Source: Talpa occidentalis (taxonomy: Eukaryota; Chordata; Mammalia; Eulipotyphla; Talpidae). Taken from it: a DNA stretch of 64,000 bases. Shown piece by piece: positions 1 through 55,772 of this stretch. The stretch lies in contig NW_023605305.1 of NCBI RefSeq assembly GCF_014898055.3, positions 111,572,734 to 111,636,733 of the forward strand, given 5' to 3'. Position 1 is the stretch's first letter; every line of letters begins with the position of its first letter. A program made the translations under genes and the position numbers. The notes under the pieces are model-generated. The model had not been told where the DNA came from and did no database searches. It saw nothing but the letters and a program-made list of their open reading frames with translations.

Positions 1-78
1 CTGCAAACGCGCCCTGACCTGTCCCTGAGACACAGCTGTCACCAGGTCGACCCTCCCCTGCCAACTGGGGAAACTCAC

Positions 79-549
79 CGGTGTCCAGGACGCGGATGCT
101 GATGGGGGCCGACTCCTCCTTGGCCAGCCGGTACCAACCTCCCTGAGGGCTGGGCAGCCGCTCCTCCACGCGGCAGGAGTAGTTGCCCGTGTCCTGCGGG
201 CTGGCCTGCAGCACCGTGAGCCGGAAGAGCAGCGGCGAGGGCCTCTGGAAGCGGAGTCTGCCCTCCCAGGGGCCACCCTCTGGGCCAAAGACCCCGTCAG
301 GGCCCACGCACAGCAGCGCCGTCCTCTCCGTGGGGTTCCCCCCCTGCTCCTCCTCCTGCTCCTCCTGTCCTGCCAGGCCAGGGCTGCCCTTTTCCCTGCC
401 GACTTTCGTCCTCAGGGAAAACCAGGCCACAGTGAAGCGGGAGTCCTGGCTCGAGCGAGATGTGATGCTGCAGCCCAGCTGGAAGGCGGCCTTCTCGGGC
501 ACCGTGGCATTGGGGACCACCAGGATCACTTGCAGGGCCACACCTGGGA
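79..549 (-). CDS. IGSF3: IGSF3-like last Ig domain exon, copy alpha
   Basis: Phase 1-1 exon of 471 bases encoding one V-set Ig domain, open throughout. Visible hallmarks are the first cysteine in FQLGC, the core tryptophan in VAWFSLRT, the second cysteine in DTGNYSC and the ending SAPISIRVLDTG. These match the last Ig domain of IGSF3. The acceptor is CCCTAG at 550-551 with a possible alternative CAG six bases further in; the donor is GTGAGT at 73-78. The Glu-rich insert is QEEQEEEQGGNPTER, where other copies read QGEDPTER. Glycosylation sequons lie at PNATV and in NYS. The reading frame continues past the donor to the window edge. Confidence 0.92.
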
Positions 550-1976
550 CTAGGGACAGAGACGGGAGGTGTGTCCATCACTGAAGACATGACAGGAGCA
601 CCCAGGAACTGGCACCGCAGTGGGGTGGGCGGGGTGGTGCCCGAGTGGTGGGGTCACAGCCCCCGGGAGAGCAGGAGCTCAAGGAGCAGAGCAGACGCGT
701 CACGAAGATGCTCTGAGCACGGAGACTGAATGTGGGGGGTAGCTGAGGAAGGGGGGGCCGTGAGAGGCCCTCAATCCCCCTGCTTGTGTTCTGGGGGAGG
801 AGCCCCGCTCCCGGGGAATCACAAGCAGAGCTGGACAGACTGACCCGCGTCACATCGCCAGCACAGCAGAGGGGAGGACAGGGGCGGGAGGGTCGGGCCC
901 AGGGGAGGAGTGAGCAGGTCAGAAGGGGGAGGCAGAAAGTGGGGGGGGGAACAGTCCCCCAGTCTCGCTGCACGGGGAGGCGTGTGCGGGGCTGTCCTCA
1001 GGGCTGTCTTTAGCCCCGCACAGGCAGCAAAGCTGCAGTTCCCGAAGGAGGTGGGACCAGGGGCTCAGGGTCTGAGGAGATAAAAACTCGGGGAAAGCGA
1101 GGACACCAGGCCTGATTAGATTAAGTGGGTGACCCGGATTTAAAGTGTGGGGACCCGGGGGTGACGTGTTTTGCGGCGGCCCCGGGTGGTGAGCACAGAA
1201 CAGGGGAGCGCCGGACTCAGCCAGGTGGAGATGGAGTCAGGTGCGTCTAAGCCATGGAGAACCTGGCAGGTAAGCTGTGCCTGTGCACCAGCCTGAGCCC
1301 AGGAGGGAGCACCCCACTGGGGGGCGCAAGTGGTTGTGAGGACTCCAGGTGAGGCAGGAACTTCACAGTTGGCCCAGTGGAAGAGGCCAGTGTCCCACAG
1401 AGGAGTAGGACCCCAGACCCTCAGACAGTGGGGAATCAGAATTACTGGTGAGGTTCGAGGTTCTGTCTGCGGGGAGAGGCCAGGTAGATTGGGGGACAAG
1501 ACCACTGCGGGATGGGGGAGCAAGGACTGAGGAACCAGGAAACTAGAAAGGACTTTTGTCTCAATACTATTAAGTGATAGCCGCATGCCTGACGGGAAGG
1601 GTGAAGCCCAGCGCCAGGCGATCTAGCGGCAGTGCAGCCTGACGGCGGACCAGGGGCCAGCAGGGACTCCACAGCCCCTCCTGTCCAGGGAGCTCAGCTC
1701 TGAGTTCCCTGCTGCTACTCCCGCTCTTTCCAGAACATTCTGAGCAAGACAAGTGACACTGCTGCAGTCGCTCTGCCCCCGGTGCAGTGCCTCCCCCCTT
1801 GATCATTTCCTTTGATCACCCAGAAGGTGACAAGGGGCTCGAGTGGCTCCTGCAGGCCAGAAAGAGGACACATGCCTGACCCATGTGACGGCCAGTTCTC
1901 GCCTCGTGACCCATTTTTTGTAACAGTCTCTTTGAATAGTTGGGAATGCGTCATTTTAAGCAAATCACATTATTCA

Positions 1977-2288
1977 AATCACTTTAAGAGTAAACTTGGT
2001 GCTGCCCTTAGTTCTGCCGTATTCCACTTTGTACTCATCTTGGTCTGCAAGGTTACATTGAGGATGGTGAGGTCCCTGGTCTGGGTGTCTAAATGAGCCC
2101 TGTTTATAAAGGGCGGGAAAGATCTGGGCTCCGGGTAAAGGTTCTCCTCCCATTCGATGACTTTATTCTTGCCTTTTTCCACAGGATATCTTTAGAGGCT
2201 ACAGGTTCTCCTATTTTGAAAGTTACATTCCGATTCATGCCTCCAGATAGAACCACATTTTGGGGCTGGGCATCACAGATGATGAGAT
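1977..2288 (-). pseudogene. CD58: CD58-like V-domain exon remnant, copy alpha
   Basis: The acceptor CCTAG lies at 2289-2293. The sequence then reads DLIICDAQPQNVVLSGG, NRNVTFKIGEPVASKDILWKK, matching the N-terminal V domain of CD58 (human has GNVTF and VLWKKQKDKV at these places). After LWKK a 1-base loss in the A-run shifts the frame (ARIKSSN) and translation stops at 2104. The conserved frame resumes as FPPFINRAHLDTQT, then shows the second frameshift shared by all copies near LNVTL. The donor expected after FTLKVI is deleted. Phase is 1-1, so skipping the exon keeps the frame. Confidence 0.85.
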
Positions 2289-4515: not shown

Positions 4516-4781
4516 TTTTTTTTTTTTTTTTTTTTTTAAAGATTTATTTATTTATGCATACAAGAGCTGGAGTGCAGGCCAGAGATGAGGTGGGTGAGAA
4601 GATTCACCAGAGACAGTGGGGAGCAGAACAGGCAGATGTCCTGAAACACACTGCTGAGGGGAGCAGCAGGCTGGGCAGGAGAGGTCTGCTGTGTCCTGTG
4701 GGTCAGCGCCCTGGCCAGGGATCAAACTTGTGCTGCAGTGGCTGGTGAGCTTCATAACCCCTTGAGCCACCAGGGAGGCCC
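4516..4781 (-). repeat. tRNA-derived SINE upstream of alpha V exon
   Basis: Minus-oriented SINE with a long T-run at its left (the A-tail complement), ATTTATTTATTTATGCATACAAG, body and head ending in GAGCCACCAGGGAGGCC. It is flanked by GGGCTTC-like and GTGCTTC-like direct repeats. Full copies occur at 16864-17115 and 31426-31686. Delta has the empty site at about 46054-46075, so this insertion marks alpha, beta and gamma. Confidence 0.85.
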
Positions 4782-5592
4782 TGGTGCTTCTTTTAATCCC
4801 TCTTCCTGTACTTCTCTACCTGACACTGCAGTACCTTTGAGTCTTCCTCCAACTCTCCCCAGGGCGTGCACCTGGGAAAATGTGCAGAGGAGTCACTCAG
4901 GAAAGGCTGAAGACTGGAGTGGAAGGTGGATCTGAGATTGTACAAAGGGCTCACACAGGAACAGCCCCCCCCCAGGCAAGGAAGAATGAGTTAGGGGGCC
5001 AGCACTACCCTCCAGGGGTTCACTGTGACTTGCCCCCAGACTGGAGGTGTTGGGGAGGGTGAGGAGGTCACAACCAAGGCAAAGATACCCATGTCCTGGG
5101 TCTGTCCTGCTGATTTCCTGAAGCTAGAAAGGGAACCAGGCGGTTCTAGACAGTCATTGGTTCTTTCCTTGAAGACCAAAGGAGGGGAAGGCGCCATCAC
5201 TGCCTGCTGAGGAACCCAGAAGTGCAGACTAGGTCCCCTGCTCAAACCCTCTCTCTGCCCTCCCCCTGCCAGGGTTGGCTTCCCACCCCACCGTGGCCTG
5301 CTGGGGCACAGAGGCCACCCCCACTTGCAAGCAATCCCAGCACTGGCAGAGGGGGAGTTCGCAGGGTGGGGTGGGGGGTGTGGTTGTGGGGGCAGATCGG
5401 CACCCCAGCAGGGATCCACACCCTAGGCGCTGGTGGGGGAGCCCGGGGGGCGGCCCAGCCTGGTTCTGTCCCCTCAAGTCTAAGGCCAGGGCACCTCGGA
5501 AGGCCGAGAAGTAACTGAATTTCAGTGAAAAGCCACAACCTTCCCGGGCAGGCTGTGTGAGGTGGGAGCCTGGATCTGCCTGTGGGGCTCAG

Positions 5593-5595
<3 letters not shown>

Positions 5596-5639
<44 letters not shown>
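5596..5639. repeat. (GA)n microsatellite
   Basis: A run of AG dinucleotides with one AAAG interruption, just downstream (gene sense) of exon 1 of alpha. Other units have only a short GAGAGAGA at the same place, so the expansion is specific to this copy. Confidence 0.95.
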
Positions 5640-5853
5640 TGAGCCCCGCGGAGAGCCCTGGAGCCTCCACTTATTCCCCAGCCAGATCCAGATGCCCAAG
5701 GGCAAAGTTTCCTCCTGAGCCCCAAGGATGGGGCGAGGTGACACTTTCTCCTGGACAGCTGGCTCGGGGAGTCCTTACCCCACCCTCTCAGCACCGACCT
5801 CACAGCAGCCTCTGGGCGCCGCCAGGCCCGGGCAGACCCGAGGGGTCACTCAC

Positions 5854-5908
5854 CGAGCAGGAGCAGGAGGAACAAGCTGCAGACCCCCGCGAGCCCGAGG
5901 CCGGCCAT
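5854..5908 (-). CDS. CD58: Signal-peptide exon 1, copy alpha (CD58-like)
   Basis: The ATG lies at 5908-5906 in a strong context (G at -3 and +4). It encodes MAGLGLAGVCSLFLLLLL plus one base and ends at a GTGAGT donor (5853-5848), phase 1. The peptide has a 10-residue hydrophobic core typical of a signal peptide. Its position upstream of the CD58-type V exon, a loose likeness to the human CD58 leader and the GC-rich 5' flank support identity as CD58 exon 1. Joined to the V exon it gives GAT (Asp); joined to the Ig exon it gives GTC (Val), both in frame. Confidence 0.8.
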
Positions 5909-5978
5909 GACGCGGCCCAGGCCGGGGTGCGCTGGCGGGAGTCCCACCTGCCTTAACGGTCGCTATTTTGTATTGATT

Positions 5979-6170
5979 TACTTTTTTAAAAAGATTTACT
6001 AAATTACCGGTACAGGAAAAAGGGCACCGCCCAAATCAGAGAATGAGGGGAGCAGCTGGCGAGTTAGGTGATGTCTCTGCCACAGGCAGGGCGCTCCCTG
6101 TTGGGATGTTACTGGTATTGTGGCTACTGACTGTGGTCAGCTCCACCCAGCCGCCCCTAACCCCCTGAGC
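5979..6170 (-). repeat. Decayed SINE beside exon 1 of alpha
   Basis: Minus-oriented, diverged and shortened SINE: TTAAAAAGATTTACTAAATTACC at the tail end, then a much altered body. Equivalent copies sit at about 20157-20350 and 34760-34960. Delta has no counterpart. Confidence 0.55.
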
Positions 6171-6460
6171 CCCCGGGGCGCACTTTAAACCTGCCACGCA
6201 CAGCGGAACCCCTGTCCCCATTCGCTGCCCCCCTCCCGCGGCACCCCGCCCGCCCTCCGCCCTCCAGGCCACTCTGGGGGTGCCACGCCCACCGCCCGCC
6301 CAGGGCTATTCTGTGGGCCCTGCTAGTGTTTGGATGATGCTGGGGTCAGAGCTGGGGCAGCTGGAGGGGGGGGGCGGGGGGGGCGGCGGCAGGAATTGCG
6401 GGTGTCAGTCCCCAAACCTCCAAGCACGGGGCAGCTCCAGGAAGGGAGGCCCCGCCCTAT
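6171..6460 (-). promoter_or_regulatory. Decayed exon-1 promoter region of alpha
   Basis: GC-rich stretch upstream of exon 1 with G-runs. The motif that is GATTGG (CCAAT on the minus strand) in delta and gamma reads GTTTGG here, and TTATGCTGG reads TGATGCTGG, so the CCAAT box is lost. Promoter role is inferred from position and composition only. Confidence 0.4.
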
Positions 6461-8930
6461 CCTCTGTGGCTTGTGGCAGCCAGACCCACCCAGGCTCTCT
6501 CCTCCCCTGTCAGAACAAGAGGAACCCGGACTGTTCAGACACCGCTGGGGTGTGGGGGTGCCTGTTGCACCCCACCCGCTTTTCCTTAATCCCGATCCCA
6601 GCCGCCCCTTGTGCCCAGAACTGGATTCCAGCCTCGGTGTCTCCTCCTCACTCTCTCTGGCTCCTCTTCGGTTTCAGCTGTGGCTTTTCCCTCAGGCTGA
6701 GGAGTTCACCCCCTCAGTGGCTCCCCGAATTTCTCTCTGCAGAGCAGCCACTGCCCTCTGGAACGCCCCTCTTATTGGTCAGTCTTCTCCACTGACTTGC
6801 TCCCCCAACCCCTGCAGCCCCAGGGGGGCCAGACCCAAGGACTCCACCCCAGGAAGGGGCCCTTTACCTTCAGAGAAGCCCAGAGCTGTCCCAGCCCAGC
6901 TGAGGCAGGTGGAGACTCTTGCCCAGACCAGGACTCCCCGCCCCTCCCACATGCCACCAGGTGCAGCTGGGAAGCAGGTGGAAATCCATTTCCTGTGGCT
7001 CAACTCCCTAGCACCCCCACTTGGGCCCCAGCATCCAAGTCACGTGGCCTGTACTTTCAGAAATCACGAACTATTTCTTCAATGAACCTAAAATCTTACA
7101 AGGCATCTCTCATGGGTGAAATTTCAGAAGCCAAAGTCCTATCTCAGGAAGCTGGTGGGTGACCTTAAGACACCCCCTACCATCTGTAGATACTGGGGGC
7201 ACATGACAAGTGCAGTGTTTACCTCAAGATGTGAGGAAATCGGGGTCCTCCGAGCCCGGGGCTGGCAGGACCTCGGGCAACCTGAGAAGGGAGGCTGGGG
7301 TCTGACAAGTGATGAAACATCAAAGTGGAGCCCATTCCGTGCCCTGCGTTAAGTGCGCGGCCTGGATTAGCAGGATGTGACCACTGTCCTGTGTCTACAG
7401 AGGAGGAAACTGAGGCTCAGGGCACGTGCCTGCCCAAGGACACGCACAGGGAGTGGCCGAGTCCAACCCAAGCCAAGTTCAAGGCATCACACTCATCTTT
7501 CACCTGGGGGAACACAACTTTGGGACTAGCAGCAAGGGTCAGCCCCCTAAAAGCAGGGCTGAGGGGAGCAATGCCCACTTTCCTGGGGTGGAAGTACCCC
7601 CCAAGGTCATCGTCTCTGCACATCAGATGAGGAAAGACTCATTAGTCTTCCTTGGTGGATGCACAACTGACCAAGCAGCAGTGCCAGCTCCTTTAGCGAG
7701 AGAAACACATTTATAAGAGCCCCAATGTGCCTGGCCTGGCAGACTCCAAGCATCACAGTGGCTCAGGGCCTGGACTGTTCATGCTCTGAGCACCTGCCAC
7801 CTAAAGGGCTCACGGTATTTTTCATTCTGCAACTGGCGTTAAAAGTCTAGGTGTCATCTGCTTGTCCTTGCAGATTTCACCGCTAGGTAAGAGAGGTGGC
7901 TTTTTCAGCTGCTCTCCTGGCGCAAGGCTGTTGCTCTTCCTAGCACATCCCTCTGGTTCTGGTTCTAGCTAAAGCCCAGAAGGCTCGGGGCCCAGCACGT
8001 AGTGGACAAAGCACTGCCTCGACTCCTGCCTAGTGTGGGAGGGGACTTTCTTGAGTCTATGTAAACACTGGGCAGCTCTGCCCTGGGGCTCTAGAGGCAC
8101 AACATTATTTCATCAAGCTCTAATTCCCTAGTTCCCCTTTAAAAATGATTCCTGGCAAAGAGCGCGTTTGAGCGAAAACCAGGCAAAAATAATACATAAA
8201 ACTGACATGGAAACATGCTGGGTACGCAAGGGAGAGACAGTGCATCTCAACTCTTGGCCAAGTCAGCAGCTGCCAGAAGTTGATAAGCAGGCAGCAAGTG
8301 GGGTGGGGTGCAGAGGCCACACATCTTGTGTCCCAGGAAGGCTGAGGTTTTAAAGAGAAGAAAAAGGAAGCACTTCCCTGAGCCTCTCACTCTGTATCTA
8401 GAGCCTCTTGTGTAGTGGCCCGTGGATTTCAAAGAATAACAGGTGGGCCCTGACCGATCACGCAACACTGCTGTGCTTTAATCATCCTGTCATTCTTCTC
8501 AACTTGCAGCTGGGATGAACTCCAAAACACCCCAGATTTAGGCTGTGCAGCAACCAGGGTCTGGGCTGCTGTGCACAGAACAGGCGCCAGGCCTTGCTCT
8601 TTCCTCCATCCTGAAAGTGCTTGCTGAGCCTTCGGGGCCAGGGCAAGGCCACCCACTGCGGATCATGCTGTGGTCTTGCTGCAGAGGCCCTTGGTGGCCA
8701 AGAAGGTTGCCGTTGACATGATCCTGCTCCCCTTCTCCACCAGCTTCTCTCCCCCCTCCTTCCCGCCTAGCCCACACCCCACCCCCCAGACAAAAATGGA
8801 AGTTAGAGTTGGTAAGCGCTTCGCTCTTTATGAAGCCCTTCAGCAGCTGGCTGTGGTGTGGAGAAAGGAGTGTGTTGTGTCATTTGCATGAAGGCACCAC
8901 TCAGGCTGGGGGAGGAAGGACAGCGAGCGA
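6461..8930. other. Spacer between beta 3' flank and alpha promoter
   Basis: Non-coding spacer matching 20640-23560, 35230-38180 and 47530-50080. It corresponds to the short IGSF3-CD58 intergenic interval. Long plus-strand frames are open here because the DNA is GC-rich, but their frame is not kept between copies. It contains a MIR (see 7340-7475). Alpha and delta keep about 0.23 kb at 8690-8930 and 49800-50070 that is replaced by an LTR in the other two. Confidence 0.6.
7340..7475 (+). repeat. MIR SINE fragment
   Basis: Contains the MIR core: CTACAGAGGAGGAAACTGAGGCTCAGG followed by TGCCCAAGGACACGCACAGGGAGTGG. Unit copies lie at about 21535-21665, 36175-36300 and 48450-48575. An ancient mammalian repeat that supports the mammalian assignment. 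Confidence 0.85.
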
Positions 8931-10261: not shown

Positions 10262-10276
10262 GAAGTTCCGGCTCTT

Positions 10277-12446: not shown

Positions 12447-12941
12447 CGGTGTCCAGGACGCGGATGCTGATGGGGGCCGACTCCTCCTTGGCCAGCCGGT
12501 ACCAACCTCCCTGAGGGCTGGGCAACTGCTCCTCCACGCGGCAGGAGTAGTTGCCCGTGTCCTGCGGGCTGGCCTGCAGCACCGTGAGCCGGAAGAGCAG
12601 CGGCGAGGGCCTCTGGAAGCGGAGTCTGCCCTCCCAGGGGCCTCCCTCTGGGCCGAAGACCCCGTCAGGGCCCATGCTCAGCAGTGCAGTCCTCTCCGTG
12701 GGGTCCTCCCCCTGCTCCTCCTCTTCCTCCTCCTCCTGCTCCTGCTCCTGCTCCTCCTGTCCTGCCAGGCCAGGGCTGCCCTTTTTCCCACTGACATTCG
12801 TCCTCAGGGAAAACCAGGCCACAGCGAAGCGGGAGTCCTGGCTCAAGCGAGACGCGATGCTGCAGTCCAGCTGGAAGGCGGCCTTCTCGGGCACCGTGGA
12901 GTTGGGGACCACCAGGATCACTTGCAGGGCCACACCTGGGA
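12447..12941 (-). CDS. IGSF3: IGSF3-like last Ig domain exon, copy beta
   Basis: Phase 1-1 exon of 495 bases, the longest of the five because the acidic run is expanded (QEEQEQEQEEEEEEEQGED). It is open throughout. Ig hallmarks are FQLDC, VAWFSLRT and DTGNYSC. The donor is GTGAGT at 12446-12441 and the acceptor CCCTAG at 12942-12947. It carries an added sequon, NVS, in RTNVSGKK where the other copies have KVS or KVG. PNSTV replaces PNATV and keeps that glycosylation site. EEQLPSPQGG and WYRLAKEESAPISI complete the domain. Confidence 0.95.
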
Positions 12942-14346: not shown

Positions 14347-14659
14347 AATCACTTTAAGAGTAAACTTGGTGCTGCCCTTAGTTCTGCCGTATTCCACTTT
14401 GTACTCATCTTGGTCTGCAAGGTTACATTGAGGATGGTGAGGTCCCTGGTCCGGGTGTCTAAATGAGCCCTGTTTATAAAGGGCGGGAAAGATCTGGGCT
14501 CCGGGTAAAGGTTCTCCTCCCATTCGATGACTTTATTCTTGCCTTTTTTCCACAGGATATCTTTAGAGGCTACAGGTTCTCCTATTTTGAAAGTTACATT
14601 CCGATTCATGCCTCCAGATAGAACCACATTTTGGGGCTGGGCATCACAGACAGTGAGAT
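14347..14659 (-). pseudogene. CD58: CD58-like V-domain exon remnant, copy beta
   Basis: The best preserved V exon. The acceptor CTAG lies at 14660-14663. It reads DLTVCDAQPQN, MNRNVTFKIGEPVASKD, ILWKKGKNKVIEWEENLYPE and PPFINRAHLDTRTRDLTILN, aligning with human CD58 residues from GNVTF through LDTVSGSLTIYN. The A-run is 6 long, keeping the frame that alpha and delta lose. The shared 1-base deletion after LNVT then shifts the frame away from the expected ADQDEYKVEYGRTKG to TLQTKMSTKW, which stops at 14349. The 3' donor is deleted. Confidence 0.87.
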
Positions 14660-18117: not shown

Positions 18118-18166
18118 TGAGCAAGAGAAACAAGCAGCTGATTCCTGCGGGCATGAGGTCGACCAT
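18118..18166 (-). CDS. CD58: Signal-peptide exon 1 of beta
   Basis: The ATG lies at 18166-18164 with A at -3 and G at +4. It encodes MVDLMPAGISCLFLLL plus one base and ends at a GTAAGT donor (18117-18112), phase 1. It is 49 bases, like the gamma first copy and delta. The hydrophobic stretch CLFLLL is short, but splicing onto the Ig exon adds IPGVALQVILVV, lengthening it. It lies in the proximal of two duplicated exon-1 blocks. Confidence 0.72.
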
Positions 18167-24884: not shown

Positions 24885-25155
24885 TTTCTTTTTTGAAAAA
24901 AGATCTATTTTTATTTATACAAGAGCTGGGGCACAGGCCAGAGGTACGGGAGGGTGAGAGGATTCACCAGAGACAGAGTGGGGAGCAGAACAGGCACATG
25001 GACTGAAAACACTGATGAGGGGAGCAGTGGGCGGGACAGGAGAGGTCTGCTCTGCCATGCAGGAATCTCCCTGGCTGGCTGGGAATTGAACCCGCGCTGC
25101 AGAGGCTGCGGACAGTTCCATAGCACTGTGCTCAACCCGCCACCACCTGTAGGTC
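24885..25155 (-). repeat. SINE exonised in gamma terminal exon
   Basis: Same insertion as 10277-10549, with duplications GGAGTTCAGATACTT (24870-24884) and GGAGTTCTGGCTCTT (25156-25170). It supplies tail codons, TAA and AATAAA. Confidence 0.9.
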
Positions 25156-25285
25156 TTGGAGTTCTGGCTCTTGAAGCACAACTGCAGGATCATGATGATG
25201 AGGATGCCGAAGATGGGGAAGGGGTAGAAGAGGACGAAGTAGAAGAGCGAGTCTTTGGAACCAACGCTGGACTGCAGAGTGGAGC
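24915..25285 (-). CDS. IGSF3: IGSF3-like TM exon with SINE tail, copy gamma
   Basis: The acceptor CAG ends at 25286, phase 1. It reads STLQSSVGSKDS, TM span LFYFVLFYPFPIFGILIIMI, then LQLCFKSQNSK and TYRWWRVEHSAMELS into the SINE, ending ...CAPALV and TAA at 24917-24915. Close to human IGSF3 through the membrane segment. The SINE part is open for about 80 residues, the same frame and stop position as beta, and includes SQGDSCMAEQTSPVPP. Confidence 0.88.
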
Positions 25286-27044: not shown

Positions 27045-27521
27045 CGGTGTCCAGGACGCGGATGCTGATGGGAGCCGACTCCTCCTTGGCCAGCAGGTAC
27101 CAACCTCCCTGAGGGCTGGGCAGCCGCTCCTCCACGCGGCAGGAGTAGTTGCCCGTGTCCTGTGGGCTGGCCTGCAGCACCGTGAGCCGGAAGAGCAGCA
27201 GCGAGGGCCTCTGGAAGCGGAGTCTGTCCTCCCAGGGGCCTCCCTCTGAGCTGAAGACCCCGTCAGGGCCCACGTGCAGCAGAGCAGTCCTCTCCCTGGG
27301 GTCCTCCCCCTGCTCCTCCTCCTCCTCCTGCTGCTCCTGTCCTGCCAGGCCAGGGCTGCCCTTATCTCCGCTGACTTTCGTCCTCAGGGAAAACCAGGCC
27401 ACAGCGAAGCGGGAGTCCTGGCTCGAGCGAGACGCGATGCTGCAGTCCAGCTGGAAGGTGGCCTTGTCGGGCACCGTGGCGTTGGGGACCACCAGGATCA
27501 CTTGCAGGAAAACACCTGGGA
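27045..27521 (-). CDS. IGSF3: IGSF3-like last Ig domain exon, copy gamma
   Basis: Phase 1-1, 477 bases, open. It starts VFLQVILVVPNATVPDKATFQLDC where others have VALQ and EKAA. VAWFSLRTKVSGDKGSPG, acidic run QEQQEEEEEQGEDPRER, DTGNYSC and SAPISIRVLDTG follow. Donor GTGAGT is at 27044-27039 and acceptor CCCTAG at 27522-27527. Two sequons (NAT, NYS) are kept. No inactivating change. Confidence 0.95.
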
Positions 27522-28969
27522 CTAGGGACAGAGATGGCAGGAGTGTCCATCACTGAAGACCTGACAGGAGACCAGGGAACTGGCACCGCAGCAGGGGGTG
27601 CCCGTGTGGAGGGGTAACAGCCCACGGGAGAGCAGGAGCTCAAGGAGCAGAGCAGACGTGCCACGAGGATGCTCTGTGCACTAAGACTGAATGTGGAGGG
27701 TAGGTGAGGAAGGGGGGCTGTGATAGGCCCTCAACCCCCCTTCTTGTGTTCTAGGAGAAGGAGTCCTGCTCAGGGGAAATCACAAGCAGAGCTGAACAGA
27801 CTGACCCGCGTCACGTCCCCGGCACAGAGGAGGCGAGGACAGGGGCGGGGAGGGTCGGGGCCAGGGGAGGAGTGAGCAGATCAGAATGGGGAGGCTGGAG
27901 GAAGGGGGGAAAACAGTCCCCAGTCTCGCTGCACGCAGGGAGCATGTGCGGGGCTGTCCTCAGGGCCTCTTTAGCCCCGCACAGGCAGCAAAGCTGAAGC
28001 TGCAGAAGGAGGTGGAAACCAGGGGTTCAGGGTCTGAGGAGATAAAGACTTTGGAAGAGCGAGAATGCTAGGCCAGACAGATTTAATGGGTGACCCAGAA
28101 TTTAAAGTGTGGGGACCCCAGGGGGCGATATGTTTTGCGGCGGCCACGGGTGGTGAGCACAGCACAGGTGAGCGCCGTACTCAGCCAGGTGGAGATGGAG
28201 TCAGGTGCGTCTAAGTGATGGAGAACCCGGCAGGTAAGCTGTGCCTGTGCACCAGCCTGAGCCCAGGAGGGAGCACCCCACTGGGGGGGCGCAAGGGGGT
28301 GGGAGGACTCCAGGGGAGGCAGGAACATTGGAGTCCACCCAATGGAAGGGGGAACATTCCACAGAGCAATTTGACTCCTGACCCTCAAAGAAAGGGGAAT
28401 CAGAATTACTGGAGATGGAATTCTAGGTTCTGTCACAGGGAGAGGCCAGGTAGATTGGGGGACAAGACCACTGCGGGATGGGGGAGCAAGGACTGAGGAA
28501 CCAGGAAACTAGAAAGGACTTTTGTCTCAATACTATTAACTGATGGCCGCGTGCCTGACGGGAAGGGTGAAGCCCAGCCCAGGCGATCTAGCAGCAGTGC
28601 AGCCTGACGGCGGAACAGGGGCCAGCAGGGACTCCACAGCCCCTCCTGTCCAGGGAGCTCAGCTCTGAGTTCCTGGCTGCTACTCTCTCTCTTTCCAGAA
28701 CATTCTGAGCAAGACAAGTGACACTGCTGCAGTTGGTCTGCCCCCGGGGTAGTTCCTCCCCCCTTGGTCACTTACTTTGCTCACCCAGAAGGTGACAAGG
28801 GACTGGAGTGGCTCCCTCAGGCCAGAAAGAGGACACACGCCTGACCCATAGGACGGCCGGTTCTCGCCTCATGAGCCATTTTTTGTAACAGTCTCTTCAA
28901 ATAGTTGGGAATTCGTCATTTTAAGCAAATCACATTATTCAAATCACTTTAAGAGTAAACATGGTGTTG

Positions 28970-29091
28970 GGCGGGAGGGGAGGGATTGAGGTCAGAATGG
29001 GGTGGTTTAAACTGTATGGGGAATATAAAAATAAAATTTATTATTATAAAAAAATAAAATGTCTTAAGAATTTGTGAAAAAAAAAAAGAGA
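28970..29091 (+). mobile_element. Short L1 3'-end insertion
   Basis: A 5'-truncated L1 3' UTR: GGGAGGGGAGGGATTGAGGTCAG..., GTATGGGGAATATAAAAATAAAA, then an A-run. It resembles the 3' end of the long L1 at about 62460-62600. Target duplications AAACATGGTGTTG (28957-28969) and AAACGTGGTGTTG (29092-29104) flank it exactly. Confidence 0.85.
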
Positions 29092-29172
29092 AAACGTGGT
29101 GTTGCCCTTATTACCGCCGTATTCCACCTCATACTCATCCTCCTCTGTGACGTGACATTGAAGATGGTGAGA

Positions 29173-30104
29173 TGCTGCAGGAGGCCTTGATGCCCCAGCC
29201 AGATAAGACACTGGCAAGCAGGAAGGTAAAGGGCCTCACATCGTGGGGCTGAAGCTAAAGAGCCTCACACCGTGGGGCTGAAGATTCCTTGTGCCTCACA
29301 CTGTGGGGCTGAAGATCTAACATTCCTTCATTTTTTGTTCTTGGCCATAAAAAGAGAAAAATTTATCAGAAAAGTACATTATGCAATAAATTATATGTAT
29401 CAGTAGACGGCAAGCAATTGGCATGGAAAATTACCTGTTTAGATATTAGTTACTACACAATTTGGCCCACTTGACAATGGAAGATGATTTATTGTACATA
29501 TCTGACAAGCAATCCAGCATAACAATTATAGTATATCCTTGTTTTGTTTTTTAGAAGTTTCCTTTTATTTAGAAGTTTCTTAGGAAAGTTTTTAAATGGA
29601 GTTAACTGTGTTAAGAAGTTTGTAAGTAGAAAAACTTCTGATAGCTGAGCAGCAGCTGGCCTCTGACTGAAGGCCATGTGAATAGTCTCTTGAAGCTGAG
29701 GCTTTAGCTGATAGGGATGCACTGGCGGCTCTCCACTGTCTTAGATAATTGTCTAGCTGGAAAAATAAGTTTTAGTGTTAGGTCTGGTTTTTTATCTATT
29801 AACCTTGAAGGCTACCGTCTAGCTGGGACCCGTAGGAGCCAGTAGTCCATGGGAACATAACACACTAATTGTTTTTGCTTTACACATGGTAATGTATTTT
29901 TTTGATTACTAATAATGAATAAATAAAGACCTGCTGAGTCTCTCAGCAGAGATACTTGCACCTCATCCAAGTGTTAGTGTCTCCTCACTACCTCATCCCC
30001 TTCCCCTTAGCCCTTAAGTTTCAGCCCCTTACAGGTCGCCAAGGCCCTCACATCCTTTCAGGAACCCCTGACACGACATTTTTCCAGGGGGCTGCTCCCT
30101 GGCA
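29173..30104. mobile_element. Solo LTR inserted in gamma V exon
   Basis: 932 bases starting TGCTGCAGG and ending CCTGGCA, with 6-base duplications GTGAGA (29167-29172) and GTGAGG (30105-30110) of exon sequence. AATAAATAAAG near 29925 on the plus strand suggests plus orientation. It contains three copies of a GGCCTCACAyyGTGGGGCTGAAG-type motif at 29230-29315. The 6-base duplication suits an ERV2/betaretrovirus-like LTR; no internal viral genes remain. Confidence 0.82.
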
Positions 30105-30876
30105 GTGAGGTCCCCGGTCTGGGTGTCTAAATGAGCCCTGTTTATAAAGGGTGGAAAGATCTGGGCTCTGAGTAAAGGTTCTCCTCCCATTCGATGACTT
30201 ATTCTTGCCTTTTTCCACAGGATGTCGTTAGAGGCTACAGGTTCCCCTGTTTTGAAAGTTACTTTCTGATTCATGCCTCCAGATATGACCAGATTTTGGG
30301 GCTGGGCATCACAGACAATGAGATCTAGGAGGGGGAAATATTGGTTGGGAAGCAGCACATGATTTTAGTGAAAACTGAAAAGCATCTTCCAAGATGCCCT
30401 TTCAGGGAGAAACAAGTAAAAATACACATCCATTATTTTGTGCTGTGCTAAAGTGAAAACTGCCACAGCAGGCAGGACACATGTGACCACGTAGAGTTGA
30501 CTCTTTACTAGGGAACTCGGGCCCGGAAATCTAAGGAATGATCCAGCTTATGGAGCCCTGGCTATGCCAGGGGCTGGGGACGACACTGGGAATGAGGCAG
30601 CAAGAAGCCAGGCATCGTCCTGAGCCCCGGGCACCCCAAGTGAGGGAGAGGACTCAGAGCAGGCCTGGGAGGCTCCAACCCAAGGGCTTTCAGGGAAGTC
30701 AGGCTGAAACAGATCAGGATGACAAATCACTGAAGGAGAGAGGAGTTAGCCAGACCAGCCCTGGTAGGGGGAGAGGAGACAGTCATAGGTAGGGAGGAAA
30801 CACCTCCCAAGGCAGTCCCTGATAAAATGAACAGCCTGGGGCTGAGGAAACAAAAGCCTATCCAAATGGCTAGAAT

Positions 30877-32689: not shown

Positions 32690-32738
32690 CAAGCAAGAGA
32701 AACAAGCAGCTGATCTCTGCGGGCCTGAGGTCGGCCAT
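32690..32738 (-). CDS. CD58: Proximal signal-peptide exon 1 of gamma
   Basis: The ATG lies at 32738-32736 with A at -3 and G at +4. It encodes MADLRPAEISCLFLLL plus one base, donor GTGAGT at 32689-32684, phase 1. Orthologous to beta 18118-18166 but lacking its second Met. Splicing to the Ig exon gives ...LFLLLVPGVFLQVILVV. Confidence 0.75.
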
Positions 32739-34611: not shown

Positions 34612-34684
34612 CGAGCAGGAGGAACAAGCCGCAGCCCCTTCCCCTCCCCCCACCCCACCCCGCTGCGCGCCTGAGGCCGGCCAT
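34612..34684 (-). CDS. CD58: Distal signal-peptide exon 1 of gamma, expanded
   Basis: The ATG is at 34684-34682 in a strong context, donor GTGAGT at 34611-34606. The 73 bases encode MAGLRRAAGWGGGRGR, then GCGLFLLL plus one base, phase 1. A G-rich insertion of 24 bases keeps the frame but puts Gly and Arg ahead of a short hydrophobic end, which may weaken secretion. Its upstream CCAAT element is intact. Confidence 0.65.
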
Positions 34685-39517: not shown

Positions 39518-39783
39518 TTTCTTTTTTAAAAAAAGATTTATTTTTATTTATACAAGAGTCAGGGCACAGGCCAGGGAGGGTGTGAGGATTCACCAGAGAC
39601 AGAGTAGGGAGCAGAACAGGCAGAAGGACTGAAAACACTGGTGAGGGGAACAGTGGGCGAGAGAGGAGAGGTCTGCTCTGCCATGCAGGAATCTCCCTGG
39701 CTGGCTGGGAATCGAAACCGCGCTGCAGAGTCTGCGGACAGCTCCATAGCACTGTGTTCAACCCGCCCACACCTGTAGGCCTT
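39518..39783 (-). repeat. SINE exonised in delta terminal exon
   Basis: Same insertion as in beta and gamma; duplications GGAGTTCAGGCTCTT (39503-39517) and GGAGTTCTGGCTCTT (39784-39798). Past it, the minus strand carries remnants of the old IGSF3 tail. Confidence 0.9.
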
Positions 39784-39911
39784 GGAGTTCTGGCTCTTGA
39801 AGCGCAACAGCAGGATGGTGATGATGAGGATGCCGAAGATGGGGAAGGGGTAGAAGAGGACGAAGTAGAAGAGCGCATCTTTGGAGCCAATGCTGGACTG
39901 CAGGGTGGAGC
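39559..39911 (-). CDS. IGSF3: IGSF3-like TM exon with SINE tail, copy delta
   Basis: The acceptor CAG ends at 39912, phase 1. It encodes STLQSSIGSKDA, TM LFYFVLFYPFPIFGILIITI, LLLRFKSQNSK, AYRCGRVEHSAMELS and the SINE tail. This copy is the closest of the three to human IGSF3 in the TM segment. A small deletion in the SINE moves the stop to TGA at 39561-39559, ending ...SHPPWPVP, six residues earlier than beta and gamma. Confidence 0.88.
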
Positions 39912-41677: not shown

Positions 41678-42160
41678 CGGTGTCCAGGACGCGGATGCTG
41701 ATGGGGGCCGACTCCTCCTCTGCCAGCAGGTACCAATCTCCCTGAGGGCCGGGCAGCCACTCCTCCACGCGGCAGGAGTAGTTGCCCGTGTCCTGCGGGC
41801 TGGCCTGCAGCACCGTGAGCCGGAAGAGCAGCAGCGAGGGCCTCTGGAAGCGGAGTCTGCCCTCCCAGGGGCCTCCCTCTGGGCCGAAGACCCCGTCAGG
41901 GCCCACACGCAGCAGTGCAGTCCTCTCCGTGGGGTCCTCCCCCTGCTCCTCCTCCTGCTCCTCCTCCTGCTCCTCCTGTCCTGCCAGGCCAGGGCTGCCC
42001 TTTTCTCCGCTGACTTTCGTCCTCAGGGAAAACCAGGCCACAGCGAAGCGGGAGTCCTGGCTCGAGCGAGATGTGATGCTGCAGTCCAGCTGGAAGGCGG
42101 CCTTCTCGGGCACCGTGGCGTTGGGGACCACCAGGATCACTTGCAGGGCCACACCTGGGA
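41678..42160 (-). CDS. IGSF3: IGSF3-like last Ig domain exon, copy delta
   Basis: Phase 1-1, 483 bases, open. Hallmarks are PNATVPEKAAFQLDC, VAWFSLRTKVSGEKGSPG, acidic run QEEQEEEQEEEQGEDPTER, DTGNYSC, EEWLPGPQGDWYLL and SAPISIRVLDTG. EEWLP.PQ..WY matches human IGSF3 more closely than the EERL or EEQL of alpha, beta and gamma. Donor GTGAGT at 41677-41672; acceptor CCCTAG at 42161-42166. Confidence 0.95.
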
Positions 42161-43572: not shown

Positions 43573-43883
43573 AATCACTTTAAGAGTAAACTTGGTGCTG
43601 CCCTTAGTTCTGCCATATTTGACTTTGTACTCATCTTAGTCTGCAACGTTATATTGAAGATGGTGAGGTCCCCGGTCCGGGTGTCTAAATGAGCCCTGTT
43701 TATAAAGGGCGGGAAAGATCTGGGCTCCGGTAAAAGTTCTCCTCCCATTCGATGACTTTATTCTTGCCTTTTCCCACAGGATATCTTTAAAGGCTACAGG
43801 TTATACTATTTTGAAAGTCACATTCTGATTTATGCCTCCAGATAGAACCACATTTTTGGGCTGGGTATCACAGACAATGAGAT
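43573..43883 (-). pseudogene. CD58: CD58-like V-domain exon remnant, copy delta
   Basis: The acceptor CCTAG lies just above 43883. The sequence is homologous to the beta V exon. The A-run is one base short and changed (TGGGAAAAGG), shifting the frame to ENFYRSPDLSRPL and a stop. Later the conserved frame also has CAA changed to TAA, plus the shared 1-base deletion and the lost donor. Confidence 0.82.
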
Positions 43884-47024: not shown

Positions 47025-47073
47025 CGAGCAGGAGGAACAAGCCGCCGCCCCCCTCGCGCCCGAGGCCGGCCAT
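47025..47073 (-). CDS. CD58: Signal-peptide exon 1 of delta
   Basis: The ATG lies at 47073-47071, G at -3 and +4. It encodes MAGLGREGGGGLFLLL plus one base, donor GTGAGT at 47024-47019, phase 1. The hydrophobic core is short (LFLLL) until joined to VPGVALQVILVV. It lies at the edge of a CpG-rich island. Confidence 0.75.
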
Positions 47074-47530: not shown

Positions 47531-50500
47531 GCACAGGGCGGCTCCAGGACTTGAGGGCCCCGCGCTTCCATCTGTGTCTGTGGCAGCCAGACCCGCCCAG
47601 GCTCTCTCCTCCCCTGTCAGAACAAGAGGAACCCGGACTGTTCAGACACCGCTGGGGTGTGGGGGTGCCTGTTGCACCCCACCCGCTTTTCCTTAATCCC
47701 GATCCCAGCCGCCCCTTGTGCCCAGAACTGGGTTCCAGCCACGGTGTCTCCTCCTCACCCTCTCTGGCTCCTCTTCGGTTTCAACTGTGGCTTTTCCCTC
47801 AGGCTGAGGCGTTCACCCCCTCAGTGGCTCCCCGAATTTCTCTCTGCAGAGCAGCCACTGCCCGCTGGAACGCCCCTTCTTATTGGTCAGTGTTCCCCAC
47901 TGGCTTGCCCCCCACACTTCCCCCTGCAGCCCCAGGGGGCCCAGACCCAAGGACTCCAAGCCAGGAAGGGGCCCTTTTCCTTCAGAGAAGCCCAGAGCTG
48001 TCCCAGCCCAGCTGAGGCAGGTGGAGACTCTTGCCCAGACCAGGACTCCCCGCCCCCCCCACATGCCACCAGGTGCAGCTGTTGAGCAGGTGGAAATCCA
48101 TTTCCTGTGGGTCTCCTCCCCAGCACCCCCACCTGGGCCCCAGCATCCCAGTCACGTGGCCTGTACTTTCAGAAATCACAAACTATTTCTTCAATGAACC
48201 TAAAATCTTAAAAGGCATCACTCATGGGCGAAATTTCAGAAGCCAAAGTCCTGTACCAGGAAGCTGGTGACCTTAAGACACCCCCTACCATCTGTAGATA
48301 TTGGGGGCACATGACAAGTGCAGTGTTTACCCCAACATGTGAGGAAATGGGGGTCCTCCACTGCCTGGGGCTGGCAGGACCTCGGGCAACCTGAGAAGGG
48401 AGGCTGGGGTCTGACAAGTGATGTGACATCAAACTGGAGCCCATTCCGTGCCCTGCCTTAAGTGCACGGCCTGGACTAGCGGATGTGACCACTGTCCTGT
48501 GTCTACAGAGGAGGAAACTGAGGCTCAGGGCACGTGCCTGCCCGAGAACACGCACAGGGAGTGGCAGAGCTGAGAGGCCAACTCAAGCCAAGGTCAAGGA
48601 ATCACACTTACCTTTCACCTGGGAGGACACACCTTTGGGACTAGCAGCAAGGGTCAGCCCCCTAAAAGCAGGGTTAGGGTTAGGGCTGAGGGGAGCAATG
48701 CCCACTTCCCTGGGGTGGAAGTACCCCCAAGGTCATCGTGTCTGGACATTGGATGAGGAAAGACTCATTAGTCTTCCTTGGTGGACGCACCTCTGACCAA
48801 GCAGCAGCGCCAGCTCCTTGAGCAAGAGAAACACATTTATAAGAGCCCTGATGTGCCTGGCCTGGCAACTCCAAGCATCACAGTGGCGCAGGGCCCGGGC
48901 TGTTCATACTCTGAGCACTTGCCACCTAAAGGTTTCATGGTATTTTTCATTCTGCAACTGGTGTTGAAAGACCAGGTTTCATCTGCTTGTCCTTGCAGAT
49001 GTCACCACTAGATAAGAGAGGCGGCTTTTTCAGCTGCTCCTCTGGCGCGAGGCTGCTGCTCTTCCTAGCACAGCCCTCTGGTTCTGGGTCTTGCCAAAGC
49101 CCAAAAGACTCAGGGCCCAGCATATAGTGGACAAAGCACTGCCTCTACTCCTGCCCAGCGTGGGAGGGGACGTTCACACTTCTATGTACACACTGGGCAG
49201 ATCTGCACTGGGGCTGTAGAGGCACAAGTTTATTTCATCAAACTCTAGTTCCCCACTTCCCTTTTAAAAATGATTGCTGGCAGAGAGTGTTTGAGGAAAA
49301 ACAGGCAAAAATAATACATAAAACTGACACGGACCATGCTGGGGACCCAACGGAGAGACAGTGCACCTCAACTCTTGGCCAAGCCAGCAGCTGCCAGAAG
49401 TTGATAAGCAGGCGGCAAGTGGGGTGGGGTGCAGAGGCCACACATCTTGTGTCCCAGGAAGGCTGAGGTGTTAAAGAGAAGAAAAGGGAAGCACTTCCCT
49501 GAGCCTCTCACTCTGTATCTAGAGCCTCTTGTGTAGTGGGCTGTGGATTTCAAAGAATAACAGATGGGCCCTGACCGATCACCCATCACTGCTGTGCTTT
49601 AATCATCCGGTCATTCTTCTCAACTTGCAGATGAGATGAACTCCCAAACACCCCAGATTTGAGCTGTGTGAGGACCAGGGTCTGGGCTGCTGTGCACGGA
49701 ACAGGCGCCAGGCCTTGGTCTTTCCTCCATCCTGAAAGTGCTTGCTGAGCCTTTAGGGTCAAGGCAAGGCCACCCACTGCAGATCATGCTGTGGTCTTGC
49801 TGCAGAGGACCTTGGTGGCCAAGAAGGTTGCTGTTGACATGATCCTGCGCCCCTTCTCCACCAGCTTCTCTTCCCCCTCCTTCCCCCCAGCCCACACCCC
49901 ACCCCCCAGAAAAAAAGGAAGTTAGAGTTGGTAAGCGCTTCCCTCTGCACCTGCTCATCAGCGCAGGCCTGACTCTTTATGACCCCTTCAGCAGCTGGCT
50001 GTGGTGTCGAGGAAGGAGTGTGCTGTGTCATGTGTACGAAGGCACCACTCAGGCTGGGGGAGGAAGGACAGCGGCCGCCAGGGAATGCAAACAGCCATAT
50101 TTTCAACATAATTTACTACAGGTCTCTGAAATGCATATAAAACATTTTAGTGCAACATCTTACAAAGAGTGTTCCTTAAAAAAAAGCAACAAAAGCAAAC
50201 CAACAGCTCTCTACATCATGCACGGGGAGCTTTCTGACCCCACCTTTTTTCCCTTCAATCATCAACGCAGAGAAACCATAGTTTGAAAAGAATAGGAAAA
50301 TCTGCTACAGAAACCCCCAGGGGAGAGAGGGTGCGGTCCTCTCCGTGTCCTGGAACGGGCCTCGCACGGTGTGGTGTTTCATCCATGCAGCCTCGGAGAT
50401 GTGCCCAAGTCAAGCCAGTGGCTGCAGATTTCCTCTTGGTCCAGACCACGGAAGCTCCGGCGGGCAACGTGCAATGAGGCCCCGCGGCCACTGGAGGGCG

Positions 50501-51004
50501 CCATATCCTGTCCTCGGACACCACAGTTCCCAAGACATGGGCAAAGCAAGCAGGTCCTGGGGATTTTCATGGAAAGCTTGGAGAGGCTCACCTTTGGAAG
50601 GCCTCCCCCAGGTCAGTAGAAAATACAGAGGAAAAAAAAATTATTGAAGTACTGGCTCCAGTTTCTTTTGTCTTTCAAGTTTCCTGCAACTGCTTCACAT
50701 ATTGAATTACCTGCAGCACCTGCTATTCTACAGCTGTGAACCCATTCAAACCCAAATCTTAGTTGCACACCCGTCCCAGGCAGCCCTCTGCATCTTTCCA
50801 ATCAGAAAACAGTCAGACACCGCCCTCCCTGACTCAGTTTCTAAGTTAGGAGGCAGCCTGGCTCTGTGGCGCGGCGCCTCCGCCCGCTGTCCAGTCTGAA
50901 CATCTCTGGGCACCGCAGCGCGGGCGCGGCCGGCAGGACAGTCACGGAGCAGAGGCGGCAAAGAGTCTCTCGGCTCCTCCCAGGTCGACATCCACGGAGG
51001 CCCC

Positions 51005-53303: not shown

Positions 53304-53687
53304 CTGGGGCTTCATTTTCTCTCCTTATGAATCTGAAGCACTTGTTAATTGGCTAAAGAGAGATTAATCTGAATATTCTAAAGTGTAACACAATAACCCC
53401 TGACCATGATTTGTATGATGAACTCTTCAAAAGGCTGATGAAACACTACAACAGACTCGGTGTGGCATCAGGATTATTGCACAGATTGACGATGACTGTG
53501 TTATCACGGCCGCTCACACTCCCGAGTTGGCCTGGGCCATCAGGGTCAGTGACATGAACGGTGTGTCAAGTCCTCAGTGCCCGGGACAGGCGAGGAAAGT
53601 GCTTATTAACCTGCAAACCGCCCTGCCCTGTCCTGAGACACAGCTGTCACCGGGCGCGACCCTCCCCTGCCAACTGGGGAAACTCAC

Positions 53688-54146
53688 TGGTGTGCAGGAC
53701 ATGGATGCCGATGGGGGCCGACTCCTCTTCCCTTGGGCGGTACCAATCTCCCTGAGGGCTGGGCACCCACTCCTCCACGCGGCAGGAGTAGTTGCCCGTG
53801 TCCTGCGGGCTGGCCTGCAGCACCGTGAGCCGGAAGAGCAGCAGCGAGGGCCTCTGGAAGTGGAGTCTGTCCTCCCAGGGGCCTCCTTCTGGGCTGAAGA
53901 CCCCGTCAGCATCTATGCTCAGCAGTGCCCTCCGCTCGGTGGGGTCCTCTCCCTGTTCCTCCTGTCCTCCCAGGCCAGGGCTACCCTTTTCCCCGCTGAC
54001 TTTTGTCCTCAGGGAAAACCAGGTCACAGCGAAGCGGGAGTTGTGGCTGGAGCGAGACAGGATGCTGCAGTCCAGCTGGAAGGCGGCCTTCTCAGACACG
54101 GTGGTGTTGGGGACCTTCATGATCACTTGCAGGGCCACATCTGGGA
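53688..54146 (-). CDS. IGSF3: IGSF3-like last Ig domain exon, copy epsilon
   Basis: Phase 1-1, 459 bases, open, the shortest copy: acidic run only QEEQGEDPTER. It reads MKVPNTTVSEKAAFQLDC, VTWFSLRTKVSGEKGSPG, LSIDADGVF, DTGNYSC, WYRPREEESAPIGIHVLHTS. SAPIGI matches human IGSF3, where the other copies have SAPISI. Donor GTGAGT at 53687-53682, acceptor CTAG at 54147-54150. Most diverged of the five. No usable exon 1 for it is seen in the window. Confidence 0.93.
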
Positions 54147-55748
54147 CTAGGGACAGAGAAGGGAGGAGAGATTTTTCATTTCTCTACTCAGAGCAACCCA
54201 AGTGCCTGTCACTGAAGACCTGACAGGAGCACCCAGGGAACTGGCACCGCAGCGGGGGTTGCCCATGTGGAGGGGTAACAGCCCACGGGAGAGCAGGAAC
54301 TCAAGGAGCAGAGCAGACACGTCACGAATATGCTCTGTGCATGAAGACGGAAAGTGGAGGGTTGCTGAGGAAGGGGGGCTGTGAGAGGGCCGTCAAACCC
54401 CCCTGCTTGTATTCTGGAGGACGGAGCCCAGCTCCCGGGGAATCACAAACAGTGCTGGACAGACTGACCCGCCTCACGTCCCTGGCACAGCGGAGGCGAG
54501 GACAGGGGCAGGGAGGGTCAGGCCCAGGTGAGGAGTGAGCAGTTCAGAATGGGGGCGCTGGAGGGGAAGGGGGAAAAAGGTCCCCCAGGCTCCCTGCACA
54601 AGGGGGAGGCGTGTGCACGGCTCCCCTCAGGGAACATCTTTACCATCACACAGGCAGCAAAGCTGCAGCTGCAGAAGGAGGTGGAGACCAGAGGCTCAGG
54701 GTCTGAGGGGATAAAGACTCTGGGAGAGCGAGGACGCTAGGCCAGAAGATTTAGTGGGTGACCCAGAATTTAAAGTGTGGGGCTTCCAGGGGATGATGTG
54801 TTTTGTAGCGGCCACAGGTGTGTGAGCACAGAACAGGTGAGCGCAGGACTCAACCAGGTGGAAATGGAGTCAGGTGCATCTAAGCGATCTAGAAAGGGCA
54901 GGTAAGCTGCACGTTTGCAGAAGACTGAGCCCAGGAGGGAGCACACCACTGGGAGGCACAAGGGGCTGGGAGTACTCCAGGCAGGGCAGAAATTTCGGAG
55001 TTGGCCCAGCAGAGCAAGGGGGCATCCCACAGAGGAGTGGGACCCCTGACCCTCAAGTGGGGAATCAGAATTAGTGGTGAAGTTCTAGGTTCTGTCTGCG
55101 GGGAGAGGCCAGGTAGATTGGGGGACAAGGCTACTGTGGGATGGGGGAGCAAGGACTGAGGAACCAGGAAACTAGAAAGGACTTTGGTTTCAATACTATT
55201 AAAACACCAAGAACGGTGGCATGTGACTGCCAGAAAAGGTGAAGAAGAGCCAGGCAATCTGGGAGGGCTGCACCCTGATGGCTAAACAGTAAGGACCTAC
55301 GTGGGTACAAGAAGGAGGACCCCAGGCTTCAGCTGGGGGTAGGAGGGAGGCTGTGTCCTAGCTCCAGGACCAGTGCAAAGTGACCCAGGAGGACAAGAAC
55401 CCACCTCCTGCAGGCTGCCGGGGCCAGCAGAAACTCTACAGCACCACCTGTCCATGGAGCTCAGCTCTGAGTTCCCTGCTGCTACTCCCTCTTTCCAGAA
55501 CATTCCAAGCAAGACAAGTGACACTGCTGCAGTCGCTCTGCCCCTGGTGCAGTTCCTCCCCACTCCGTCACTTCCTTTTCTCACCCAAAAGGTGACAAGG
55601 GGCTTGACTGGCTCTTGCATGCCAGGAAGAGGGCACACGCCTGACCCATAGGACAGCCAGTTCTCGCCTTGTGGCCATTCATTTGTAACAGTCTCTTCAA
55701 ACAGCTGGGAATTCATCATTTTAAGCCATGACATTATTCAATACTTAC

Positions 55749-55772
55749 CAATCACTTTAAGAGTAAACTTGG
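55749..55772 (-). pseudogene. CD58: 3' stub of CD58-like V exon, copy epsilon
   Basis: Only the last codons survive (TKFTLKVI plus one base) before L1 sequence begins. This stub keeps the canonical donor G|GTAAGT (55748-55743) that is deleted in the four other copies, proving where the V exon ended and that it ended in phase 1. Confidence 0.8.

Follow-up and report, generated by a model that had tools for sequence, protein, structure and literature searches.

Tandem chimeric CD58-IGSF3 gene units in the mole Talpa occidentalis, with disabled V exons and a probable short membrane-protein product

A stretch of 64,000 nucleotides from the mole Talpa occidentalis (NCBI RefSeq assembly GCF_014898055.3, contig NW_023605305.1, positions 111,572,734 to 111,636,733 of the forward strand; hereafter the window) carries an array that joins parts of two genes, CD58 and IGSF3. 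It holds five tandem minus-strand units, termed A to E, in which CD58-type exons for a signal peptide (SP) and a V domain are followed by the exons for the last immunoglobulin (Ig) domain and the transmembrane (TM) segment of IGSF3. Exon mapping gives the order E, D, C, B, A when this strand is read 5' to 3', and unit A reaches the left window edge before any TM exon. The junction is repeated head to tail, with successive Ig exons spaced unequally at 12.0-14.6 kb. In a comparison of the window with itself, the four longest alignments span 5.5-12.6 kb at 89-91% identity, far beyond chance. An initial annotation of this DNA had described the repeated minus-strand order of SP, V, Ig and TM exons, which the mapping bears out, and had placed four SP exons at 5908-5854, 18166-18118, 32738-32690 and 47073-47025; these coordinates are exact, and each exon runs from an ATG to a phase-1 GT donor. 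Absent from that annotation were unit E, a second upstream SP-type exon in unit C (exon C'), the broken upstream SP in unit B and a short interspersed element (SINE) in the TM exons of B-D.

Two database proteins correspond to units of the array. When the SP, Ig and TM exons of unit D are spliced together, the translation equals P0001 exactly (294 aa, 'immunoglobulin superfamily member 3-like', Talpa occidentalis). P0004 (209 aa, of the same name and species) consists of a 16-residue CD58-like leader and the exact Ig-TM frame of unit E. Each of the two joins a CD58-like leader to an IGSF3 Ig domain and TM segment, without a V domain. The exons are listed below, with the CpG observed/expected ratio (o/e) given for SP exons and with P0002, an IGSF3-type protein, used as a reference.

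5854..5908, minus: SP exon of unit A, ATG to phase-1 donor; CpG o/e 0.66
18118..18166, minus: SP exon of unit B, ATG to phase-1 donor; CpG o/e 0.21
32690..32738, minus: SP exon of unit C, ATG to phase-1 donor; CpG o/e 0.28
34612..34684, minus: exon C', second upstream SP-type exon, open, ATG to phase-1 donor; CpG o/e of the region 0.56; surroundings match the SP of unit A
47025..47073, minus: SP exon of unit D (CD58 exon 1 type), ATG to phase-1 donor CTCG/GTGAGT (slash, splice site); start of P0001; CpG o/e 0.68
1977..2288, minus: V exon of unit A, dead; shared frameshift, 1-base loss in a poly-A run, donor deleted
14347..14659, minus: V exon of unit B, dead; shared frameshift and donor deletion
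28942..30324, minus: V exon of unit C, dead, split by two insertions; shared lesions plus private losses
43573..43883, minus: V exon of unit D, dead; shared 1-base deletion, two more 1-base losses, stop codons, donor deleted
55743..55773, minus: 3'-end remnant of the V exon of unit E (25 bases, 55773-55749), with intact phase-1 donor G/GTAAGT
79..549, minus: last-Ig exon of unit A, open; the TM exon would lie past the left edge
12447..12941, minus: last-Ig exon of unit B, open, phase 1-1
27045..27521, minus: last-Ig exon of unit C, open, phase 1-1
41678..42160, minus: last-Ig exon of unit D, open, phase 1-1; part of P0001
53688..54146, minus: last-Ig exon of unit E, open, phase 1-1; contained in P0004
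10307..10677, minus: TM exon of unit B, coding part plus SINE-derived tail and stop; 304-aa SP-Ig-TM frame
24915..25285, minus: TM exon of unit C, coding part plus SINE-derived tail and stop; 298-aa SP-Ig-TM frame
39559..39911, minus: TM exon of unit D, coding part plus SINE-derived tail and stop; end of P0001
51133..51254, minus: TM exon of unit E, coding part, stop before the IGSF3 tail; end of P0004
51008..51130, minus: IGSF3 tail remnant of unit E, out of frame; 92.7% identity over 41 aa to P0002

The parentage of the two halves can be read from their matches. Leader and V resemble CD58 (LFA-3): the window V exons match human CD58 in the PDB (E 2.8e-15, with a query that carried an X at the frameshift), and the P0004 leader, MTPLGAAGVFCVLSLL, by eye resembles the leader of intact Talpa CD58 (P0080), MTPLSPAGVLCLLPLLG. 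For the Ig and TM exons, the matches are to IGSF3 proteins across vertebrates, and the five Ig exons are 69-78% identical to P0002; invariant Ig columns across 14 rows include Cys25, Trp41, Asp118, Tyr122 and Cys124, and searching PDB sequences with the Ig exon returned general Ig matches only. The units differ from both parents in their dead V exon, in the lost IGSF3 tail and in the CD58 C2/TM exon, which was not found in the window (E below 0.05). One Ig exon per unit was recovered with two kinds of query, the last Ig plus TM and a protein with the TM, the tail, the last Ig and a portion of the Ig before it; with these queries only, the five Ig and four TM exons were all the IGSF3 exons that the window yielded. 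The window units therefore lack the multiple Ig domains and conserved C-terminal tail that mark an IGSF3. In an Ig protein tree built without the mole's own IGSF3, the mole rows group together (99/100); it holds 8 mole rows and 11 of the 17 other IGSF3-type rows intended, the remaining 6 lacking the motif by which the sequences were cut.

Further relatives are encoded outside the window. P0062, also from Talpa, comprises two complete IGSF3-type Ig modules, a third that is partial, and a TM segment, and is 74-92% identical to the window units. P0009 reads a V domain like that of the window V exons into an Ig domain in frame, and is 85% identical to Talpa CD58 (P0080) over 38% of its length. P0001, P0004, P0009 and P0062 each stand for one member sequence; together, units A-E, P0009 and P0062 bring the number of Ig copies in this genome to nine or more. 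The naming style of the IGSF3-like Talpa proteins suggests that they are, as we assume, automatic gene models.

In the window, 5' exons of one gene (CD58 type) precede 3' exons of another (IGSF3) on the same strand. We take CD58 and IGSF3 to lie on one strand in human as well. Two reports describe them as close neighbours there (PMC8707797, PMC5990624). A tandem duplication spanning the IGSF3-3'/CD58-5' boundary, the origin that the initial annotation had proposed, is the best account of this exon order. The sequence of the V-to-Ig intron is shared by all five units (1405-1427 bases in A-D, 1602 in E). Since this intron is common to A-E, the junction was probably formed once. Flanking introns diverge by 7-10% among A-D and by about 15% against E, so that the units are distinct copies that have existed for some time and no duplicates made by the assembly.

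The V exon carries lesions in all five units: a splice donor deletion and a frameshift in A-D, an insertion in E. Unit E keeps the donor (AAAGTGATTG before and GTAAGTATTGAATAATG after the splice site), whose position fits the codon phase seen in P0009 and in P0080 (K-V-V followed by a split codon). The same region reads AAAGTGATTTGAATAATG in A, C and D and AAAGTGATTTGAATAAATG in B, so that nine bases including the 5' splice site are missing in all four. Common to A-D as well is the loss of one base between the codons for NVT and DEDEY, where P0080 and P0009 read NVTSSDEDEY. Additional losses comprise one base of a poly-A run in A, C and D and private losses in C and D, and D has acquired stop codons. 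In unit E only 25 bases of the exon are left, after which A/T-rich inserted sequence begins. Thus an intact CD58 V domain, the part that binds CD2, is found in none of the five units, and the SP-V-Ig frame is open in none of A-D.

Two insertions split the V exon of unit C within 28972-30090. One, of about 120 bases, has an A/T-rich end and the repeated flanks aaacatggtgttg / aaacgtggtgttg; the other, of about 0.9 kb, holds a 29-base tandem repeat at 29227-29316. GC-poor DNA occupies 55774-64000 (GC about 0.38 from 56001) and starts where the V exon of unit E is cut; by eye, with no search made, reading frames in this segment resemble L1 fragments.

As the SP, V, Ig and TM joins are all phase 1, skipping of the V exon leaves SP, Ig and TM in frame. 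Together with the death of V in every unit, this makes SP-V-Ig-TM best read as the ancestral state, and a V-Ig frame of that type persists in P0009, which corresponds to no window unit (best Ig identity 83%). The initial annotation had treated the V exon as usable, which the missing base and deleted donor shared by A-D, and the further lesions of A, C and D, contradict. Its phase-1 joins hold for the SP donors, the Ig donors and acceptors and the TM acceptors, and fail at the V donor, deleted in A-D. From its description of tandem chimeric CD58-IGSF3 genes, the array, the order of CD58-5' before IGSF3-3' exons and the chimeras themselves (P0001, P0004) stand; the V domain has to be struck from the product of the window units.

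The IGSF3 cytoplasmic tail is lost in all four units with a visible TM exon, by two routes. In B, C and D, a SINE directly follows FKSQ(N/S)SK in the TM exon, where it provides both a different tail and a stop. The frame of E terminates with RCCDC-stop ahead of a well-kept, out-of-frame copy of the tail, so that DNA for the conserved IGSF3 C-terminus is still present in this unit. The SINE copies lie at about 10277-10533 (B), 24883-25137 (C) and 39510-39770 (D) and are not in E, which indicates that the insertion postdates the split from E; a literature search identified no mole SINE family for them. P0062 likewise ends without the IGSF3 tail. Downstream of the TM exons of D and E, a stretch 0.8 kb long (38165-38952 and 50065-50850) is 97% identical between the two units, whereas neighbouring pieces of this pair are 84-89% identical; this 0.8-kb stretch reflects either recent gene conversion or an unusual conservation of the 3' untranslated region.

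At the 5' ends of the units, CpG o/e was compared with the window background (median 0.28, 95th percentile 0.58). The values at the SP exons of A and D and at exon C' lie above the median, which gives A and D, and C' to a lesser degree, a more promoter-like appearance. On this sequence evidence, the units could plausibly use the CD58 promoter. The SP/promoter region has been duplicated further in B (18912-22539) and C (33441-37181), giving two SP-type exons per unit; the repeat around C' (33441-37181) is 85% identical to 4624-8367 in unit A. The upstream SP-type exon is open in C and broken in B (about 20035-20085), where its ATG is gone. For unit E, no SP exon was found within the window, and the P0004 leader is likewise absent from it; the SP of this unit therefore probably lies beyond position 64000.

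SP-Ig-TM frames are open in B (304 aa), C (298 aa) and D (294 aa), as is an SP-Ig frame in A. The most likely product would be a small type I membrane protein carrying a single Ig domain of IGSF3 type. An AlphaFold2 model of P0001, computed with 38 relatives (mean pLDDT, the predicted local distance difference test score, 69.7; pTM, the predicted template modelling score, 0.54), shows an Ig fold, with blocks of 10 residues mostly at 81-95 pLDDT and low values in a Glu-rich loop, followed by a TM helix spanning residues 199-219 and by a tail modelled with low confidence. Searched with Foldseek, the model matched Ig V-type domains of many kinds and no specific relative.

Several comparisons suggest that the Ig exons have been under constraint. 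In one five-unit alignment, the Ig exons show three indel events among A-D and four among A-E, all in the Glu-rich loop and none frameshifting. Of the flanking-intron indels, 33 of 36 (A-D) and 43 of 49 (A-E) are frameshifting (exon versus intron, p 1.4e-4 and 2.7e-5), and without 1-2 base homopolymer indels 24 and 31 intron events remain (p 0.0016 and 0.00075). Replacements fall on conserved IGSF3 columns in 7 of 36 cases in A-D and 5 of 29 in E, versus 43% expected (p 0.0026 and 0.0031); these columns are 59 of 156 codons, defined from 45 IGSF3-related proteins, and changes shared by two copies were counted in each. The exon/intron substitution odds ratio is 0.45-0.65 in all six A-D pairs, with p<0.05 in five of them. 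Pairwise ratios of replacement to synonymous rates (dN/dS), obtained by counting, range from 0.47 to 0.98 and are not clearly below 1. Overall, the sequence comparisons point to a constraint on the Ig exon that is real but modest.

These observations are probably best accounted for by a chimeric array of the mole lineage that arose from a boundary duplication, whose V exon has since died and which now encodes short SP-Ig-TM membrane proteins. The array would have grown from a duplicated IGSF3-3'/CD58-5' boundary, and the first chimera would have consisted of the CD58 leader, the CD58 V domain, the membrane-proximal Ig domain of IGSF3 and the IGSF3 TM segment. In an ancestor of A-D, the V exon presumably lost its 5' splice site and gained a frameshift, and in E an insertion would have cut it. 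With V skipped in the RNA and the frame kept by the phase-1 joins, the present units would specify a short type I membrane protein made up of a CD58-type leader, one V-type Ig domain of IGSF3 and the IGSF3 TM helix. This protein would lack the IGSF3 tail, replaced by a SINE-derived one in B-D and cut off by an early stop in E. We infer from the sequence the order of these events, the use of the CD58 promoter, V skipping in RNA, display at the cell surface and which members are live, with D, E and perhaps A as the candidates and B and C possibly in decay.

A number of results weigh against this account, and several of them would be expected if the array were decaying pseudogenes, that is, duplicated gene ends without functional transcripts, with the database proteins as automatic models that string open exons together. 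All 5 units have a dead V exon, and all 4 that show a TM exon have lost the IGSF3 tail. Ig substitutions among A-D are near neutral, their 17 synonymous and 36 replacement changes equalling a CpG-weighted neutral expectation (0.32 synonymous), and the absence of stops in the Ig exon is not unusual (P 0.32 under neutrality). Among the Talpa IGSF3-like matches listed (P0001, P0004, P0009, P0062), which came in part from searches restricted by protein length, none equals A, B or C (best Ig identity 89-91%), and the SPs of B and C are without a CpG signal (o/e 0.21 and 0.28). The four pairs with E give exon/intron odds ratios of 0.72-0.87 (p >0.05), dN exceeds dS in five of six TM exon comparisons, and the indel result falls back to P 0.016 (A-D) and 0.0085 (A-E) once homopolymer indels are left out and the expectation is multiplied by 0.53 to allow for a lower exon rate. 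Gene conversion from a functional parental IGSF3 could mimic conservation of the Ig exon, and the overall AlphaFold2 confidence for P0001 is moderate. Even so, a pseudogene array would have to reconcile five Ig exons with 0 frameshifting indels against 43 in flanking introns, replacements that avoid conserved IGSF3 columns, and V exons of those very units that did gain frameshifts; we consider it possible, if on balance somewhat unlikely.

Other readings of the product fare less well. Splicing of the Ig modules of successive units through their phase-1 joins could yield multi-Ig IGSF3-like proteins; all Ig exons are phase 1-1, and P0062 is such a protein, from units outside the window. However, P0062 begins inside an Ig module and has no signal peptide, each of the units B, C and D possesses an SP and a TM exon of its own, and among the matches listed there is no multi-Ig protein of window units, which leaves read-through quite unlikely. 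Two-Ig chimeras of the form SP-V-Ig-TM would fit the exon order, the acceptors and the similarity of V to CD58, and P0009 shows a V-Ig frame, though outside the window; as the product of the window units they are very improbable, being already contradicted by the frameshift and 9-base donor deletion shared by A-D, the truncated V of E and the lack of V in P0001 and P0004. That the assembly repeats a single locus several times is hardly conceivable, given copies that differ by 7-15% in introns, private insertions and the unequal spacing of 12.0-14.6 kb, and no point was found in its favour.

The preferred account, a boundary-duplicated chimeric array, has published counterparts. In Drosophila yakuba, boundary-crossing tandem duplications make chimeric genes (PMC5460883) in which, as proposed for the mole, the 5' end of one gene is joined to the 3' end of its neighbour; those are population-level fly duplications, whereas the mole array is old and amplified. 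The nearest parallels appear to be Sdic of Drosophila melanogaster and the gorilla IGSF3-GGT fusion. Sdic is likewise a chimera of two parents (sw and AnxB10) in a tandem, lineage-specific, copy-variable array, whose repeat further contains part of a retrotransposon and a presumed pseudogene resembling AnxB10; it involves other genes in another animal group and affects sperm competition (PMC7475035). In gorilla, an IGSF3 fragment was fused and amplified, with 21 copies predicted coding in one haplotype, according to a preprint; in that fusion the 5' end consists of six internal exons of IGSF3 and the 3' end of GGT, the copies lie on acrocentric short arms and transcripts come from testis (PMC12767296). 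In the mole units, the 5' end is instead of CD58 type, and what IGSF3 contributes is its last Ig and TM. No description of a CD58-IGSF3 family was found in the open-licence PMC literature. Already public is the naming of the mole proteins as 'IGSF3-like'; new is the recognition of their chimeric origin and of the loss of the V exon.

The array provides a mammalian example of a boundary-crossing tandem duplication making a fused gene. It also illustrates how symmetric phase-1 exons let a fusion outlive the death of its middle exon, the product being pared down during amplification. Together, the mole array and gorilla IGSF3-GGT suggest that IGSF3 has been drawn more than once into amplified fusions. 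CD58 is the ligand of CD2 on T cells and natural killer cells. A bolder reading, which we hold to be rather unlikely, is that the mole possesses a family of tail-less single-Ig receptors under CD58 leaders and promoters, with V shed by at least two routes and the tail by two, the same Ig-TM core being left each time; such a family might present a domain of IGSF3 type on cells that express CD58, where it would act as a decoy for IGSF3 contacts or modulate them. More generally, a family under CD58 leaders could, if expressed, bear on immune adhesion in the mole.

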